The position numbers and the translations under genes are program-made. This document shows positions 2,374 through 11,600 of a stretch of DNA of 24,902 nucleotides, piece after piece. This DNA is from a virus: positions 1 through 24,902 of IMG/VR virus record IMGVR_UViG_3300030331_001159; one strand, 5' to 3'. The notes beneath the pieces are model-generated. The model searched no databases. It saw only the letters and a program-made list of their open reading frames with translations, and had not been told where the DNA came from. Position 1 is the stretch's first letter, and every line of letters begins with the position of its first letter.

Positions 2374-3006
2374 ATGGTAATGATAAAAAACAGAAAGACA
2401 GTGAAGGGTAAGTTAGGTAGCACTAGACCAAAAGATACCGACTTTGCTGGTATAGCAAGAAAACAAAGTAGAAAGAAAAAGACTACAACTAAAAGTAATA
2501 GACCTACTGATGCTAGAACTAAAGCTCTTAGAACAGCTTTAAAAGAGAAACAGAAACTAGCGGGTAAAGGATTAGGTCAAGCTGGTCAAGCATTCTTAGG
2601 AGGATCTGCAAAACAGACACCAGTTTCTCCAAAGAAAAAACCAACAGGTAGGCCTGGTGGAAAGATGAGTAGGCCTGCTGCTAAATCACCACCTAAACGA
2701 AGACGTGGCTTTGGTTTTACATCCAGAACAGGACCAATTAAATTAAAACCAAGATTTGCTGGTGGTGGTAAGACTTCTAAATATCGCATGGCCGGAGGAG
2801 GTAAGACTTCTAAATACCGTATGGCCGGTGGTGGGAAGACCTCCAAGTATCGTATGGCTGGGGGTGGAAAGACTTCTAAATATCGTATGGCTGGGGGTGG
2901 TAAAACATCTAAGTACAGAATGAAGGGTGGAGGTAAGACATCTAAGTATATGGCTAAAGGTGGTAAAACTTCCAAGTACATGAGACGAGGCGGCAAGGTT
3001 AAGTAG
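2374..3006 (+). CDS. Basic protein with C-terminal GGKTSKY repeats (210 aa)
   Basis: The start ATG 2374 follows AAAAGGAG (2357-2364). Residues 1-128 are disordered-looking and Lys/Arg/Pro-rich (KQSRKKKTTTKSNRP; KSPPKRRRGFGF). From residue 129 come five exact copies of an 11-residue unit, AGGGKTSKYRM, then two 10-residue variants (KGGGKTSKYM, AKGGKTSKYM) and a tail RRGGKVK. The heptapeptide GGKTSKY is kept in all seven. Low-complexity basic GGK-repeat proteins are seen in marine phages, but their role is unknown; DNA binding, RNA binding or a docking scaffold are all possible. The stop TAG overlaps the GTG start of the next gene (TAGTG). Confidence 0.78.
   Translation: MVMIKNRKTVKGKLGSTRPKDTDFAGIARKQSRKKKTTTKSNRPTDARTKALRTALKEKQKLAGKGLGQAGQAFLGGSAKQTPVSPKKKPTGRPGGKMSRPAAKSPPKRRRGFGFTSRTGPIKLKPRFAGGGKTSKYRMAGGGKTSKYRMAGGGKTSKYRMAGGGKTSKYRMAGGGKTSKYRMKGGGKTSKYMAKGGKTSKYMRRGGKVK
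2758..2982 (+). repeat. Tandem 33-bp (then 30-bp) coding repeats
   Basis: Seven in-frame units: five of 33 bp (2758-2922) and two of 30 bp (2923-2952, 2953-2982). The protein unit is invariant in the first five, but the DNA differs at many third positions (Gly as GGT/GGA/GGG, Thr as ACT/ACC/ACA, Lys as AAA/AAG, Arg as CGC/CGT/AGA). The array is therefore old and kept by selection on the protein rather than freshly duplicated. Confidence 0.9.
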
Positions 3007-3951: not shown

Positions 3952-4644
3952 ATGGCAACTTCAGGTACAACAACATTCAATCTCGATATAGCTGATGTAA
4001 TTGAAGAAGCCATGGCTATGTTAGGTGGTGAGCAAACTCTAGGGTTTGAACCGTTAGAGGCACGTCGCACACTTAACCTTCTTCTTATCGATTGGATGAA
4101 CCGTGGTATATTACTTTGGAAACAAAACTTAGCCACATTGGATATAACAAGTGGCACAGCTGAATATACATTACCAACTTCACTTATAGATATAACTGAA
4201 TTAGTTCACAGAACAGTCAGTGGTTCAACAACCACAGACTTAGCTTTAGAACGTATTACTATGGAAGCTTATCAAAGAATTACAAACAAGACACAAACGG
4301 GTAGACCAACACAGTATGCTATCAATAGATTAAGAGATGCAGCTGAATTATATTTATGGCCTACACCTGATACCACAACTTCAAGTGGCACACCTATATT
4401 ATCATATTTCAGCTTTAACAGAGTTGAAGATATAACAAAGTCCGATCAAGATCCTGATGTTCCTTTTAGATTCTTACCATGTTTAGCTACCGGCTTAGCT
4501 TATAAAATGTCTATCAAAAGACCAGGCATTACATCCGAAAGAGCCAGTATGTTAAAACAAATGTACGAAGAAGAATTAACATCAGCAATGTATGCAGATA
4601 AAGAAAGAGCTAGTCTTTTGATTAAGCCATCGTTTAGGTTATAA
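3952..4644 (+). CDS. Head-tail adaptor-like protein, P22 gp4/T7 gp11 type (230 aa)
   Basis: The protein starts with an alpha-helical bundle region (DVIEEAMAMLGGEQTLGFEP, EARRTLNLLLIDWMNRGILL). A beta-rich insert follows (TSGTAEYTLPTSLIDITEL, LYLWPTPDT), then a C-terminal helical pair (PFRFLPCLATGLAYKMSIKR, MLKQMYEEELTSAM). This helix-bundle, beta-insert, helix order and the length are those of podovirus adaptor rings that sit under the portal (P22 gp4, T7 gp11 tail tubular A). The role would be joining the portal to the tail nozzle. The assignment is by architecture and by the nearby second adaptor and nozzle genes. Its TAA overlaps the next ATG. Confidence 0.68.
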   Translation: MATSGTTTFNLDIADVIEEAMAMLGGEQTLGFEPLEARRTLNLLLIDWMNRGILLWKQNLATLDITSGTAEYTLPTSLIDITELVHRTVSGSTTTDLALERITMEAYQRITNKTQTGRPTQYAINRLRDAAELYLWPTPDTTTSSGTPILSYFSFNRVEDITKSDQDPDVPFRFLPCLATGLAYKMSIKRPGITSERASMLKQMYEEELTSAMYADKERASLLIKPSFRL

Positions 4645-4913
4645 TGGCAAAAGGTAAGTATGCATACTTTATCTGCGACCGATCAGGGTTTAGATTTAAA
4701 TACTCTGAGAGAGTCAAAGAGCCGACGGGGTTGGTTGTTGGAGCTTCGGAAACGGATGGTCGATATAATATATTAGATCACCCGCAGAACAAAACTCCAA
4801 GAATTAATGACGATGAAAACTTGAGGGATGCACGTCCGGAAGTCGTACTAGCTACAACTGGCGATGCTGGATGGAGTCCCGATGATTCAACATTTACAAA
4901 GAGAGGTAACTAA
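4644..4913 (+). CDS. Small ICDRSGF-motif phage protein (89 aa)
   Basis: Coupled to the adaptor by TAATG. The N-terminus carries YFICDRSGFRFKYSERVKEP and a later SETDGRYNILDHPQNKTPR stretch, then an acidic Pro-containing tail. From memory, ICDRSGxRF...SETDG is a short conserved phage family found in connector regions, often with the Cys-Asp-Arg-Ser-Gly segment intact. It is probably a virion or assembly protein, but its role is not known. It has no transmembrane segment, signal or catalytic motif. Confidence 0.7.
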   Translation: MAKGKYAYFICDRSGFRFKYSERVKEPTGLVVGASETDGRYNILDHPQNKTPRINDDENLRDARPEVVLATTGDAGWSPDDSTFTKRGN

Positions 4914-5369: not shown

Positions 5370-6353
5370 ATGTCTGTGGTTACTAGTGGATACAGTAGAA
5401 ATACTTGGAACTCAGGTGCATGGAACCGTAGTGTAGTTGATCGTTCGGTTACAGTTAGTGGAGTTGCATTATCCACTACTGTTCGTTCTGTGGACGTAGT
5501 TATTCCGGGAACGGCTTTTGTATCTAACGTAGGAATAAATTTATCTCTTCGTAGTGTATCTACAACAGCTAATGCAAACGTATCGGTAACCAGAGCAAAT
5601 ATAGGATTTAGTTTACGATCAGCAACCGTTGAAGTTGTTAAGACAAGTAATGTAACAGGGGTATCTTTAACGACTACATTAAGAAGTCCAACACTCACAG
5701 GTAGCCCAAAAGTTTCTTTAACAGGATTAGCACCAAGATTTACCGTAAGAGATGCCATAGCTTTTTTTGGAACAAATGTTATACCATCACAAACATCGGC
5801 GACATTTACAACAGGTAATGAAAACATAGAAGCTGGAGCTAATCCAGTAATTTACACAAGTAAAACATTTAAGGTAACAGTAAAAAGCACTAGTGGTGGT
5901 AATAAATATTTAATAGATGGTAAACAACAGTATGGTTTAAATTTAGTTAAAGATAGAAATTTATTTACCTTTGATCAATCTGATAGTACAAACACTGGTC
6001 ACCCTTTTAGATTTAGTTTAACACCAAACGGTACACATGGAGGAGGAACTCAATACACAGTTAATGTACAAACTGTGGGAACTCCAGGTAATCCCGGGGC
6101 ATATACACAAATATTTGTTGAGAATGATGGTCCAACTACATTATATTATTATTGTACAGTTCACTCAGGGATGGGTTCTGTTGTTAATTTTCAACCAGTA
6201 ATTAGAACAAGAGTTATATCACCAAATATAAATGGTGACGGTAACTTGGTATTAACAGGAGTTAGTGCTAGATTTAGAACACACATAAGAGGAATATGGA
6301 CACCTAAAGTTTTTGGTGGTACTTCTGAAATATGGAAGGCTAAGAAGATATGA
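5370..6353 (+). CDS. Repeat protein with inserted cupredoxin-like domain (327 aa)
   Basis: Residues 5-19 (TSGYSRNTWNSGAWN) match the G(W/F)xRxTWxSGxWN start common in marine phage structural proteins. Residues 29-138 hold five beta repeats of exactly 22 residues, with Arg at 39, 61, 83, 105 and 127 in LRS/VRS/VRD. Residues about 160-275 form a cupredoxin-like domain: FTFDQSDSTNTGHPFRFS supplies His211, and TLYYYCTVHSGMGSVV supplies Cys262, His265 and Met268, a full type-1 copper-like ligand set. A sixth repeat-like segment (LTGVSARFRTHIR, 295-307) follows. It lies between two adaptor genes and is probably a virion protein. Electron transfer or copper scavenging is speculative. Confidence 0.78.
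   Translation: MSVVTSGYSRNTWNSGAWNRSVVDRSVTVSGVALSTTVRSVDVVIPGTAFVSNVGINLSLRSVSTTANANVSVTRANIGFSLRSATVEVVKTSNVTGVSLTTTLRSPTLTGSPKVSLTGLAPRFTVRDAIAFFGTNVIPSQTSATFTTGNENIEAGANPVIYTSKTFKVTVKSTSGGNKYLIDGKQQYGLNLVKDRNLFTFDQSDSTNTGHPFRFSLTPNGTHGGGTQYTVNVQTVGTPGNPGAYTQIFVENDGPTTLYYYCTVHSGMGSVVNFQPVIRTRVISPNINGDGNLVLTGVSARFRTHIRGIWTPKVFGGTSEIWKAKKI
5454..5783 (+). repeat. 22-residue (66-bp) coding repeat, five units
   Basis: Protein-level repeats at residues 29, 51, 73, 95 and 117 of the cupredoxin-containing protein, each of the form hxxxxhxxxhR(S/D) with no insertions or deletions between units. DNA identity is low, so the repeat is visible mainly after translation. Confidence 0.72.
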
Positions 6354-7012
6354 GTATAACATTTAACCAATTAGTAAACAGAATTAAAACAACAAGTGAA
6401 GATACTAGCACAGAGTTTGTAGGTGACATCCCAGCTTTTATTGAAAGAGCTGAAGCAAGATTAACAAGAGAAATAGATTCATATGGTGTTGTGCAATATG
6501 CAACATCAAACATGGTTATCGGTGATCCATTTATTACCAAACCTGTAAATACATTAATTATAAAAAATTTAAATATTATAAAGTCTGACGGCACACGTAT
6601 TAATTTATTACAAAAGACAGACGAATATTTAAATGATTATTGGCCACAACGTACAAGTGTGGGAGTGCCTAGATATTATGCAAACTTTGGTTTTAATAAT
6701 TTACTTATAGCTCCTACACCCGTGTCGGCTTATGATTGTGAAATGTCTTATATCGTTCAACCAACAGCAGCTACCTCAGTGCATCAAGAGAATTTCTTTA
6801 CTGAATATTGTTCTAATGCATTGTTTTATGCTAGTATGAAGGAAGCTTGTATGTTTATGAAAAATTACTCTGCGGCTCAAATTTGGGAACAAGAGTATCA
6901 ACGAGCCTTTACTGACTTATTAAATGAAGCCAGAAGGACAAGACAGGATGATATGAGAAATAATGCCTCACCAGCTGGAGGCGATAATACATTAGTAAAA
7001 GGAAGTAATTAA
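6350..7012 (+). CDS. Tail adaptor protein, SU10-adaptor-like (220 aa)
   Basis: The ATG overlaps the upstream TGA (ATGA). The N-terminal helices read FNQLVNRIKTTSEDTSTEFV and IPAFIERAEARLTREIDSYG. A beta insert follows (NTLIIKNLNIIKSDGTRINL, NDYWPQRTSVGVPRYYANFG, LLIAPTPVSAYDCEMSYIVQ), and then C-terminal helices (FFTEYCSNALFYASMKEACM, QEYQRAFTDLLNEARRTRQD). This layout and the motifs P-x-x-I-x-x-A-E-x-R-L-x-R-E and GxPRYYA are those of the SU10-type phage adaptor family. It is a second adaptor beside the one at 3952, so two stacked rings may exist between portal and nozzle. Confidence 0.78.
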   Translation: MSITFNQLVNRIKTTSEDTSTEFVGDIPAFIERAEARLTREIDSYGVVQYATSNMVIGDPFITKPVNTLIIKNLNIIKSDGTRINLLQKTDEYLNDYWPQRTSVGVPRYYANFGFNNLLIAPTPVSAYDCEMSYIVQPTAATSVHQENFFTEYCSNALFYASMKEACMFMKNYSAAQIWEQEYQRAFTDLLNEARRTRQDDMRNNASPAGGDNTLVKGSN

Positions 7013-7967: not shown

Positions 7968-8237
7968 ATGGTATTTCAAAATAATGTTCTTTCAGGTGCT
8001 GGTGGATCAGGCACAACCGTATATGAAATAGACCAATCAATAAGATTTAATGAAGCTGATAGTCCATATATGCAAAAAACATATAGTGGAGACGGAAGTC
8101 GTACGACTTGGTCATTTAGTTTTTGGACAAAGCTAGGTAAATCACCACCTTATAATTCAACAAGAGGTAATTTTTTAATTGCTTATAATACTACTAGTGG
8201 TGCGCAAGAAGAATGTATATTAATGGTCAAAGAGTAA
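7968..8237 (+). CDS. 5' part of a split LamG-SPRY fibre gene (89 aa, broken)
   Basis: After a short anchor, residues from about 22 read SIRFNEADSPYMQKTYSGDG and TTWSFSFWTK, the first strands of a LamG/concanavalin-type domain. They are paralogous to FNDGDSPYMRR...TISFWVK in the 787-aa protein downstream. The reading then stops at 8235-8237 (ECILMVKE), while the continuation of the same domain resumes in another frame from 8198-8213. The expected middle strands (about 45 residues compared with the paralogue) are missing. The likeliest explanation is an internal deletion that also shifted the frame, in the phage or in assembly. It is best read together with the next feature. Confidence 0.65.
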   Translation: MVFQNNVLSGAGGSGTTVYEIDQSIRFNEADSPYMQKTYSGDGSRTTWSFSFWTKLGKSPPYNSTRGNFLIAYNTTSGAQEECILMVKE

Positions 8238-9235
8238 CTGACTTTGCTACTGAAACATATCCATCACAAAGTGCTGAAGGTCATGTAGGAAAGAGTGCAG
8301 ATGTACATTACATTGGCAGTAGAGGTGGTAATTCCAATACACGAATTGATGGTTATATGGCTGAAATACATTATTTAGATGGTCTAGCTTATGACCCTAG
8401 TTTCTTCGGCGAGTTTAATAATTCTGGAATCTGGATAGCAAAAGAATACACTGGCAGTTATGGAACAAATGGATTTAAAATTGATGGCAGAGATGCATCT
8501 GACTTAGGAGATGACGAATCAGGTAATGGTAATGATTTCACCTCATATAATCTTGCAGCACATGACCAAGTTAGTGACTCACCTTCCAATAATTTTTGTG
8601 TAATGAGTCCTATTGATTTTACCTATAATACAATTAAAAATGGAAATTTAGAAACTATTGGTGGTAATAACAATAAAGGTGGTAGAGGTACTATGGGATT
8701 TACCAGTGGTAAATTTTATTGGGAAATGTTAGCTACAACACTGTCTGATAGATATCCAGGTAGTGGTGTGGTGTATGACGAATATGCATCTAGTATGCCT
8801 ACTGCATATGCTGGAGGTGGCACTAATCATGGTGCAGGAGCATCACACAATGGAGCCAAATGGTATAAACAAAGCACATCAGGAACACAGTATGGAAGTC
8901 ATCCATCTAGTGGAGACATTTATATGTATGCATTAGATAGAGATAATAATAAAATATTTTGGGGTGTTAATGGCACTTGGAGAAATAGTGGTGACCCAGC
9001 TAATGGAACTGGAGCAGTGGCTTCTAGTTTAACACATTATGGGGCATGGATGCCTTTTGTAAATCATGGTTCAAATGCTGGTGCTTCAGCATCTACCTTT
9101 AATTTTGGACAAGATGGAACTTTTGCTGGAGCTAAAACAGCTCAAGGTAATAGTGATGGTAATGGAGTTGGTAATTTTTACTATAGTGTTCCAAGTGGGT
9201 ACTTAGCACTTTGCACAAAGAATTTAGGGAGTTAA
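8213..9235 (+). CDS. 3' part of the split LamG-SPRY fibre gene (340 aa)
   Basis: This frame is open from about 8198. It continues the LamG domain with YINGQRVTDFATETYPSQ, the DGYMAEIHYLDGLAYDP strand and YGTNGFKIDGRDASDLGDDE, all of which align with the 787-aa neighbour (LYVDGDLMTSFATSTYPPQ, DGYLAEVNLVDGTALTPD). From residue about 160 a SPRY-like domain follows (GKFYWEM, IYMYALDRDNNKIFWGVNGT, FNFGQDGTFAG) and it ends with VPSGYLALCTKNL. There is no good Shine-Dalgarno before ATG 8213, so independent translation is doubtful. As part of an intact gene it would be a receptor-binding or glycan-binding fibre. Confidence 0.65.
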   Translation: MYINGQRVTDFATETYPSQSAEGHVGKSADVHYIGSRGGNSNTRIDGYMAEIHYLDGLAYDPSFFGEFNNSGIWIAKEYTGSYGTNGFKIDGRDASDLGDDESGNGNDFTSYNLAAHDQVSDSPSNNFCVMSPIDFTYNTIKNGNLETIGGNNNKGGRGTMGFTSGKFYWEMLATTLSDRYPGSGVVYDEYASSMPTAYAGGGTNHGAGASHNGAKWYKQSTSGTQYGSHPSSGDIYMYALDRDNNKIFWGVNGTWRNSGDPANGTGAVASSLTHYGAWMPFVNHGSNAGASASTFNFGQDGTFAGAKTAQGNSDGNGVGNFYYSVPSGYLALCTKNLGS

Positions 9236-9236
9236 T

Positions 9237-11600
9237 ATGGCAGCACCAACAATACCAAATGGCGAAACACAGTTCTTCCCGATCATCTACGAAGGCGACG
9301 GAAAAGGCCAGAGGGTCGGTAAGTTCGTACCTTTTACAGACAATGGTACTATTGCTAATAGTTTGATATTTAATGATGGAGATAGTCCATATATGAGACG
9401 AACACCTTCAGGAGCTAGTAATCGTAAAACTTTTACCATAAGTTTTTGGGTAAAAAGATGTCAATCAGGAGTACTTCAACTAATAATTGCACAAGGTGCA
9501 GATCACAATAATTCTAGTACTATAGCATTTTCTTCTTCTGATCAACTACGCTTTGGACATAATGATAGTGGTTCAACAACTTATGCTTTAATAACAAACA
9601 GAACATTTGAAGATACCTCTAAATTTTATCATATACTTGCATCTTTTGACACCACTCAATCAACAGCATCAGATAGAGTAAAATTGTATGTTGATGGTGA
9701 TTTAATGACTTCCTTTGCAACATCTACTTATCCACCACAAGATTTTGATTTGGATTTTAATTCTACAGGAACTATTGCAATAAGTGGTCAAATTCCATCT
9801 GGAACTTTATTTCCTTTTGATGGATATCTGGCTGAAGTTAATCTCGTGGATGGCACAGCACTAACACCTGACACTTTTGGACTTACGAACACATCAACTG
9901 GCAGATGGATCCCCAAAGCATTAACAGGTATTACTTATGGAACTAATGGTTTTAGATTAAAGTTTCAAGACAGCTCAGCACTTGGTGATGATACCAGTGG
10001 TAACACAAATGATTTCGGTACGGTAAATGGTCTTGTAGCTGGAGACCAGACCACCGATAGTCCGACACAGAATCATGCGACACTTGAAGATGGTGGAAAT
10101 GGAGGAACTTTATCTGAAGGTAATTTAAAACTAGCTACCACAACAAGTCAATATAATATTAAATGTGCAACATTAAGACCAAAATCAGGAAAATATTATG
10201 CAGAATTTAAACAAATAAATTCTGGTGGAAGACCGAATGTTGGAGTTGCTTTATCTGATAATATGCCTTATTCAGGCACAAATGTTTTTACACCAGTTAC
10301 ACCAGTTTCTAGTAATATACCAGGATATGGATATTATGGTTATAATGGTATAATTTATACCTCGTTAGATGGAGGTCCTACTTTTACTACTGTTAATAGC
10401 ACAGGAACTACTTATGCACAAAATGATATAATAGGTATTGCATTAGATTTAGATACACCACAAGTAAGTTTTTATAAAAATAATTCTTTAGTTATTACTT
10501 TGAGTCTTCCAAGTGGTTCAAATGGTTATTCATATTTTGTTGGAGATACTGCTGCTGGTTATAGTGCGACTTGGGAATGTAACTTTGGTCAAAAATCTTT
10601 CGCCTACACCCCACCAACTGGCTTTGTGGCTTTACAACAAGACAACTTGCCAGAGACTGCAAAAGGCATAACTGGGTTTACTTGGATTAAAGATAGAGAC
10701 AATGCACTTAATCATAATAGTTATGATAGTAGTAATGGTGTATTTAATAGATTAGTTCCAAATAATAACTCTACCATACTTAATACTCAAAGTGGTGTTT
10801 CAAAATTTTTAAAAGGTGGTATCGCTGTTGGTGATTTATCTAATATAAATAATAGTGGTGCATCTATGGTGTCTTGGAACTGGGTAGCAAATGGAGGGGT
10901 CACTAGCACCAACAATGATGGTTCAATTAGCTCAACTGTTCAGGTAAATTCTGATGCTGGGTTTAGTATTGTGCAAGGTAAATATTTTCAGGGCACTATG
11001 GGACACGGGTTATCACAAACTCCCGAATGGATTATTTACAAAGAAACTTCACCTAATGCAAATAGTTGGTATGTTTGGCATAAAGGTTTAACATCAACAA
11101 CTTATTATTTGTTATTCGATTCAACTCAAGCTCAAACTAATTATGGTGCTACATTATGGGCACCAACATCAACTACTTTTTCAACTAATTTATCATTATC
11201 AGGAGATAGAGATGCTATTGCCTATTGTTGGCACGGAGTAGATGGTTTTAGTAAATTTGGTAGATACGAAGGAAATGCTAACTCAAATGGTCCGTTTGTG
11301 TACTTAGGATTCCGACCAGCTTTTTTAATGATAAAAAATGCAGATAGGAGTGTTGACTGGATTATTATTGATAGTAAAAGAGACCCTTTTAATGATGGTG
11401 TGAGTAAATTACTAAAACCAAGTTCTAGTGCTGCTGAATCTGAAGCTAATAATCAAGGTATAGACCTTTTAAGTAATGGTTTTAAAATTAGACAATCATC
11501 ATCTAATGCTTTTAATGCTAGTTCAGAAACTCATATCTACATGGCATTTGCTGAACATCCATTCGTTGGGGACGGAACGAGTCCTGTAACTGCGAGATAG
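9237..11600 (+). CDS. Large receptor-binding fibre: LamG + SPRY + DUF7483-like C-terminus (787 aa)
   Basis: The N-terminus reads IPNGETQFFPIIYEGDGKGQ, a conserved anchor. Residues about 40-240 are a LamG-type domain (DSPYMRRTPSGA, TISFWVK, KFYHILASFDTTQ, VKLYVDGDLMTSF, DGYLAEVNLVDGTAL). Residues about 290-470 are SPRY-like (GKYYAEFKQIN, IIGIALDLDTPQVSFYKNNS, CNFGQKSFAYTPPTGFVALQ). The C-terminal about 240 residues (GFSIVQGKYFQGTMGHGLSQ, DAIAYCWHGVDGFSKFG, YLGFRPAFLMIKNAD, IYMAFAEHPFVGDGTSPVTA) match the phage fibre domain I know as DUF7483. It probably binds a surface glycan. The ends are GC-richer than the middle, suggesting domain swapping. Confidence 0.82.
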   Translation: MAAPTIPNGETQFFPIIYEGDGKGQRVGKFVPFTDNGTIANSLIFNDGDSPYMRRTPSGASNRKTFTISFWVKRCQSGVLQLIIAQGADHNNSSTIAFSSSDQLRFGHNDSGSTTYALITNRTFEDTSKFYHILASFDTTQSTASDRVKLYVDGDLMTSFATSTYPPQDFDLDFNSTGTIAISGQIPSGTLFPFDGYLAEVNLVDGTALTPDTFGLTNTSTGRWIPKALTGITYGTNGFRLKFQDSSALGDDTSGNTNDFGTVNGLVAGDQTTDSPTQNHATLEDGGNGGTLSEGNLKLATTTSQYNIKCATLRPKSGKYYAEFKQINSGGRPNVGVALSDNMPYSGTNVFTPVTPVSSNIPGYGYYGYNGIIYTSLDGGPTFTTVNSTGTTYAQNDIIGIALDLDTPQVSFYKNNSLVITLSLPSGSNGYSYFVGDTAAGYSATWECNFGQKSFAYTPPTGFVALQQDNLPETAKGITGFTWIKDRDNALNHNSYDSSNGVFNRLVPNNNSTILNTQSGVSKFLKGGIAVGDLSNINNSGASMVSWNWVANGGVTSTNNDGSISSTVQVNSDAGFSIVQGKYFQGTMGHGLSQTPEWIIYKETSPNANSWYVWHKGLTSTTYYLLFDSTQAQTNYGATLWAPTSTTFSTNLSLSGDRDAIAYCWHGVDGFSKFGRYEGNANSNGPFVYLGFRPAFLMIKNADRSVDWIIIDSKRDPFNDGVSKLLKPSSSAAESEANNQGIDLLSNGFKIRQSSSNAFNASSETHIYMAFAEHPFVGDGTSPVTAR

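Follow-up and report, generated by a model that had tools for sequence, protein, structure and literature searches.

A probable type-1 copper site in a cupredoxin domain of a marine phage virion protein

The gene at 5370-6353 of the window, which is a 24,902-nucleotide stretch of the IMG/VR virus record IMGVR_UViG_3300030331_001159, probably codes for a virion protein from a marine tailed phage, built as a fibre-like repeat body into which one cupredoxin domain is inserted; this domain would bear a mononuclear type-1 copper site. In the proposed site His211, Cys262 and His265 would be the equatorial ligands and Met268 the axial one, the last three in a loop of the amicyanin type; the coordinates of the model were not read. 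The original prediction, that a structural protein of a phage contains a cupredoxin domain with all the type-1 ligands, is supported by the invariance of the ligands, by the fold model and by profile matches to copper proteins. Copper binding by the domain is likely, with no copper measurement available, while the identity of the metal, its loading, the display of the domain on the particle and a role in adsorption are inferred.

The carrier protein starts with a GAWN motif, followed by about six β-hairpin-like repeats of 21-22 amino acids, the cupredoxin domain and one more repeat. It contains a single cysteine (262), four histidines (211, 223, 265 and 305) and two methionines (1 and 268). 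The residue numbers proposed for the four ligands were right, and the segments GHPFRFS and YYYCTVHSGMGS are found where they had been placed in the open reading frame. The features of the gene and its nearest neighbors are as follows:

3952-4644, + strand: SU10-adaptor-like head-tail connector gene (Pfam PF24175, 1.9e-14)
4644-4913, + strand: neighbor gene of the CDRSGF type, 89 amino acids, lacking the domain but related to a protein on which it is found in other phages
5370-6353, + strand: carrier gene, ATG start, 327 amino acids
5448-5837, + strand: quasi-repeats xVTGVxLxTxLRSxxx, residues 27-156 (direct reading of the protein sequence)
5850-6200, + strand: cupredoxin domain, residues ~161-277 (AF2 model, structural matches and profile)
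6000-6002, + strand: codon for His211, the N-terminal ligand, in GHPFRF (ligand conservation)
6153-6155, + strand: codon for Cys262, the thiolate ligand and sole cysteine of the protein (conservation and residue count)
6162-6164, + strand: codon for His265, the second histidine ligand (ligand conservation)
6171-6173, + strand: codon for Met268, the axial ligand with amicyanin spacing (conservation and comparison with amicyanin)
6350-7012, + strand: second SU10-adaptor-like gene, directly downstream of the carrier (Pfam PF24175, 4.4e-21)

In the full-length AF2 model, confidence is high for residues 161-275 and nowhere else. Strand pairs are predicted for the quasi-repeats at residues 27-156, with very low confidence (pLDDT 26-38); this region is likely to be fibrous, and since the model is poor outside the domain nothing firm is drawn on the repeat body. 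The domain was also modeled alone (5844-6221) from an alignment of 33 sequences, from which rows belonging to annotated phage records had been excluded. This gave a nine-strand sandwich with a pLDDT of 91.3 and a pTM of 0.86. Numbered within the domain, the first histidine lies just ahead of the strand at 55-58, the cysteine ends the strand at 99-104, and the second histidine and the methionine are in the loop preceding the strand at 112-117. In the predicted structure the ligand positions thus match the cupredoxin layout, where the cysteine, histidine and methionine share one loop after a strand. The geometry was seen as topology and structural alignment only, and no side-chain distances were read from the model.

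The best solved structural matches of the domain model are mostly copper proteins. Laccase, rusticyanin, blue copper oxidase, nitrite reductase and pseudoazurin are found at the top ranks of the Foldseek search, and two of the matches are proteins engineered with an amicyanin loop. In the VIA comparison a nitrite reductase cupredoxin domain aligned over 107 residues (Z 9.1, rmsd 5.2 Å) and rusticyanin over 108 (Z 8.6, rmsd 3.1 Å). These structural scores are moderate (Foldseek E ~1e-3, TM ~0.5) and the copper-free cupredoxin-like protein 3njh is also among the structural matches; copper is therefore not shown by the fold alone.

The window protein used as a single query gave no match in Pfam, including its cupredoxin models, or in sequence searches of the PDB, and an earlier profile of 10 sequences gave only chance matches, mostly to antibodies. 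A profile of 39 sequences matched, among copper oxidase/nitrite reductase sequences, the C-terminal cupredoxin domain of the copper oxidase 9cck in the PDB (2.6e-5), and also plastocyanin (0.003), in both cases with H, C, H, and M in register. Seven of the 39 family members match Pfam Copper-bind (PF00127), the best at 2.7e-5. The domain thus displays three features of the cupredoxin superfamily, namely a predicted Greek-key β-sandwich, the His-Cys-His-Met set and homology at the level of the family profile. In PHROGs the carrier protein matches families of tail fibres, baseplate wedges and connectors, and the matches mainly cover the cupredoxin domain.

Copies of the domain came from IMG/VR scans, from a single scan covering genomes of bacteria and archaea, and from phage records. 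Since patterns containing CxxH would bias a test of conservation, one IMG/VR scan was made ligand-blind, using a query of 49 residues between the first histidine and the cysteine that excluded all four ligands. H-C-H-M was present in 79 of the 80 complete unique copies found in this way, the sole exception (locus L321) reading D-C-H-L. Over all loci, covering many phages, the set is intact in 278/279 complete copies, and it is present in every complete ortholog gathered with the N-terminal half (residues 1-160) alone. Among 39 diverse sequences no column is invariant apart from those of the four ligands; these are also, sparsely filled columns aside, the only fully conserved ones among 23 representatives sharing less than 62% identity. 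Each of the 277 unique copies checked has exactly one cysteine, so there is no disulphide inside the domain. Judged by sequence, the invariance of four ligands together with the single cysteine is the signature of a metal site, and the H-C-H-M pattern is not due to chance.

Free loss of Cys262 or His211 among homologs would have refuted the original prediction, and is not seen in orthologs or near relatives. The 17 annotated phage records examined contain 19 intact and five degenerate copies. In the cyanophages P-RSM4 and S-SZBM1 the C..H..M loop is absent, and Syn1, ACG-2014j and S-B64 have a decayed second copy beside an intact first one. These losses in remote cyanophage copies affect the whole loop or site and not single ligands, which is the pattern expected of an abandoned site and not of drift. 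They also mean that copper is not required by every carrier. The S-SZBM1 and P-RSM4 copies (loci L377 and L378) keep much of the domain sequence without the C..H..M loop and are natural copper-free controls.

The domain is found on several types of protein. In the window it is carried by the GAWN repeat protein, and elsewhere by a CDRSGF-type protein, by the N-termini of GW-repeat proteins (sometimes in tandem) and, at the C-terminus, by tail fibres from Pelagibacter-associated contigs. Cyanophage carriers include baseplate connectors of the T4 type, fibres and structural proteins. The S-SCSM1 carrier is annotated as "virion protein", and the virion proteins of this phage were determined by mass spectrometry (PMC9602691); that of S-TIM5 is called a virion structural protein. 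In a collection of cultured phages 351 records match the P-SSM2 form, including many near-identical isolates, and all are by name cyanophages, pelagiphages or marine viruses. From this distribution of homologs the domain is a mobile module on varied virion proteins. Most of the domain tree lacks resolution, with 60 of its 102 inner branches open, hence no claim is made on the direction of transfer.

The fetched loci contain 148 ORFs homologous to 4644-4913, of which 63 have the cupredoxin domain, at the C-terminus. Some of these homologs have CxxC pairs resembling a zinc ribbon, and these pairs are lost in the window copy. Related phages (n = 23) have one domain copy in 19 records, two in one record and none in three, which may be fragments. 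The domain seems to alternate between the two neighboring virion genes, being on either the CDRSGF or the GAWN/GW protein and absent from the other; as the records may be incomplete, this is only suggestive.

Some other parts of the window deserve mention. The carrier gene sits between two SU10-adaptor-like genes of one phage. A basic protein with tandem GGGKTSKYRMA repeats is encoded at 2374-3006, and similar GGK repeats are found at about this place in related phages (L243 and L256). The ORFs at 7968-8237 and 8213-9235 overlap in different frames and resemble one protein; a relative (L368:3926-5368) is a single ORF of 480 amino acids, so a frameshift or a sequencing indel is likely here. The protein encoded at 9237-11600 combines DUF7483 with a lectin-like SPRY domain and is a probable receptor-binding tail fibre.

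To our knowledge, type-1 ligand sets are copper sites in all families where they occur. The near-constancy of the ligands across hundreds of phages from the ocean suggests a copper site on the particles of many marine phages, with a purpose that has not yet been described. A literature search found no description of virion cupredoxins, which is weak evidence of absence as most subscription journals were outside its scope. As virions assemble in the cytoplasm, copper loading is placed after lysis: the domain would fold without metal in the host cytoplasm, and copper would be taken up at lysis, on exposure of the virion to periplasm or seawater. The domain would be displayed on the particle by exposed neck, baseplate or tail-fibre proteins, and once loaded it might help adsorption, either by resembling or contacting copper proteins of the envelope or by providing a rigid binding head. 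Taken on its own, such a role in adsorption is conceivable but falls somewhat short of an even chance. The wider proposal, that this is a functional type-1 site that is selected, passed between virion genes and used to recognize or sense the host envelope in many abundant marine phages, can only be put forward as a tentative hypothesis, less likely than not. The location of the domain varies among carriers (N-terminal, internal, C-terminal, baseplate), and this fits poorly with a single role at the receptor tip.

The same variation in position and carrier, sometimes with tandem copies, would suit a purely structural function, where copper or another soft metal merely stiffens an exposed β-sandwich against proteases, light and seawater without taking part in recognition or redox chemistry. 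One invariant cysteine without a disulphide partner is also in keeping with this. However, ordinary phage β-sandwich modules need no metal, the strict retention of a weak axial methionine exceeds what stiffening would demand, and degenerate copies lacking the site remain in virion proteins. A purely structural role is possible, but doubtful.

The second alternative builds on an analogy with the iron Trojan Horse, or Ferrojan Horse, idea: envelope partners of the host involved in copper uptake, or its envelope copper proteins, might recognize the copper of the phage, coupling adsorption to copper acquisition. Metals have a precedent in tail fibres, as the T4 gp37 tail fibre holds iron at HxH sites (review, PMC11705849). 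The cultured carriers found are all marine by name, and predicted envelope lipoproteins of marine bacteria are among the nearest cellular relatives. Many proteins from SAR86, Woeseiaceae and similar bacteria have a signal peptide and lipobox (CGGGG) at the N-terminus and the domain at the C-terminus; by this prediction the domain is also found at the bacterial envelope. By a strict pattern, a signal peptide and lipobox were detected in 14 of 43 complete cellular proteins versus none of 210 complete viral ORFs; some matches in bacterial genomes are phage contigs within single-cell or metagenome assemblies. Against this, no receptor is known, the lipoproteins are mainly of the SAR86 type and have not been shown in the phage hosts, and the domain is not always located at a fibre tip. 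Coupling to copper acquisition must for now be regarded as rather unlikely.

A change between Cu(II) and Cu(I) on meeting host electron carriers might alternatively signal contact and help to start DNA ejection. The ligand set is complete, including the axial methionine, as in electron-transfer cupredoxins, and the domain is present in baseplate connector and neck-region genes. However, a partner-docking surface and a suitable distance to periplasmic electron carriers are only assumed here, and we know of no precedent. This explanation is improbable. Ig-like and other β-sandwich domains commonly decorate phage virions and some copies lack the site, but a metal-free, Ig-like adhesion domain whose ligands merely survive from a cupredoxin ancestor is highly improbable, as a relic should erode residue by residue while here only the four ligands are invariant in a domain otherwise at 25-60% identity.

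If the site does bind copper, cyanophages, pelagiphages and their relatives would be carriers of an extracellular copper redox center. The trace-metal chemistry of the sea would then be tied to phage adsorption, and marine phages might be considered as copper ligands. Recognition of the host envelope by means of copper, if true, would parallel the iron Trojan Horse idea, with copper in place of iron. The single cysteine per domain and the existence of carriers in culture (S-SCSM1, S-TIM5, P-SSM2 and HTVC028P) make a clean test possible.

Among known copper proteins, amicyanin from Paracoccus denitrificans (His53/Cys92/His95/Met98) shares with the phage domain the type-1 ligand order, the short loop and the β-sandwich. 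The C-x2-H-x2-M spacing is, as originally claimed, shorter than that of plastocyanin, and it equals the natural spacing of amicyanin, where the residues are Cys92, His95, and Met98 (PMC12723479). The short loop is therefore not odd, and the methionine has a known structural precedent. The loop reads CTVHSGM in the window protein and CTPHPFM in amicyanin, and the first histidine is followed by proline instead of the asparagine of amicyanin. The best amicyanin match of the 39-sequence profile is not significant (E 0.45), and the likeness specific to amicyanin is, as far as seen, one of the loop. Amicyanin is also a free electron carrier, whereas the phage domain is one module within a virion protein. 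The plastocyanin/Copper-bind (PF00127) and Cupredoxin_1 (PF13473) families have the same fold with the ligands in register, and some members of the phage family score against them; however, two residues separate the second histidine from the methionine in the phage domain and four in plastocyanin, and the window copy is not matched by Pfam.

The best structural and profile matches are the cupredoxin domains of multicopper oxidases and copper nitrite reductases (2dv6, 9cck and small laccases). Unlike these enzymes, the phage protein has a single such domain in a structural protein, without ligands for type-2 or trinuclear copper. The His-Pro at the first ligand recalls the HPxH motif of the oxidases. 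With four histidines and no HxH motif of a trinuclear cluster the protein itself was rejected as a multicopper oxidase, and a CuA domain was rejected because it needs two cysteine ligands (C-x3-C) where this protein has one cysteine. T4 gp37 is comparable in that metal is placed on a phage tail protein, as is proposed here, but there iron is bound octahedrally by paired histidines in the fibre; with histidines at 211, 223, 265, and 305 and no HxH, an iron-binding fibre of this type was also rejected for the window protein, which instead has a cupredoxin domain. In marine bacteria, SAR86 among them, the predicted lipoproteins have a C-terminal copy of the same domain family with the same four ligands, and differ from the viral ORFs in having a signal peptide and lipobox.
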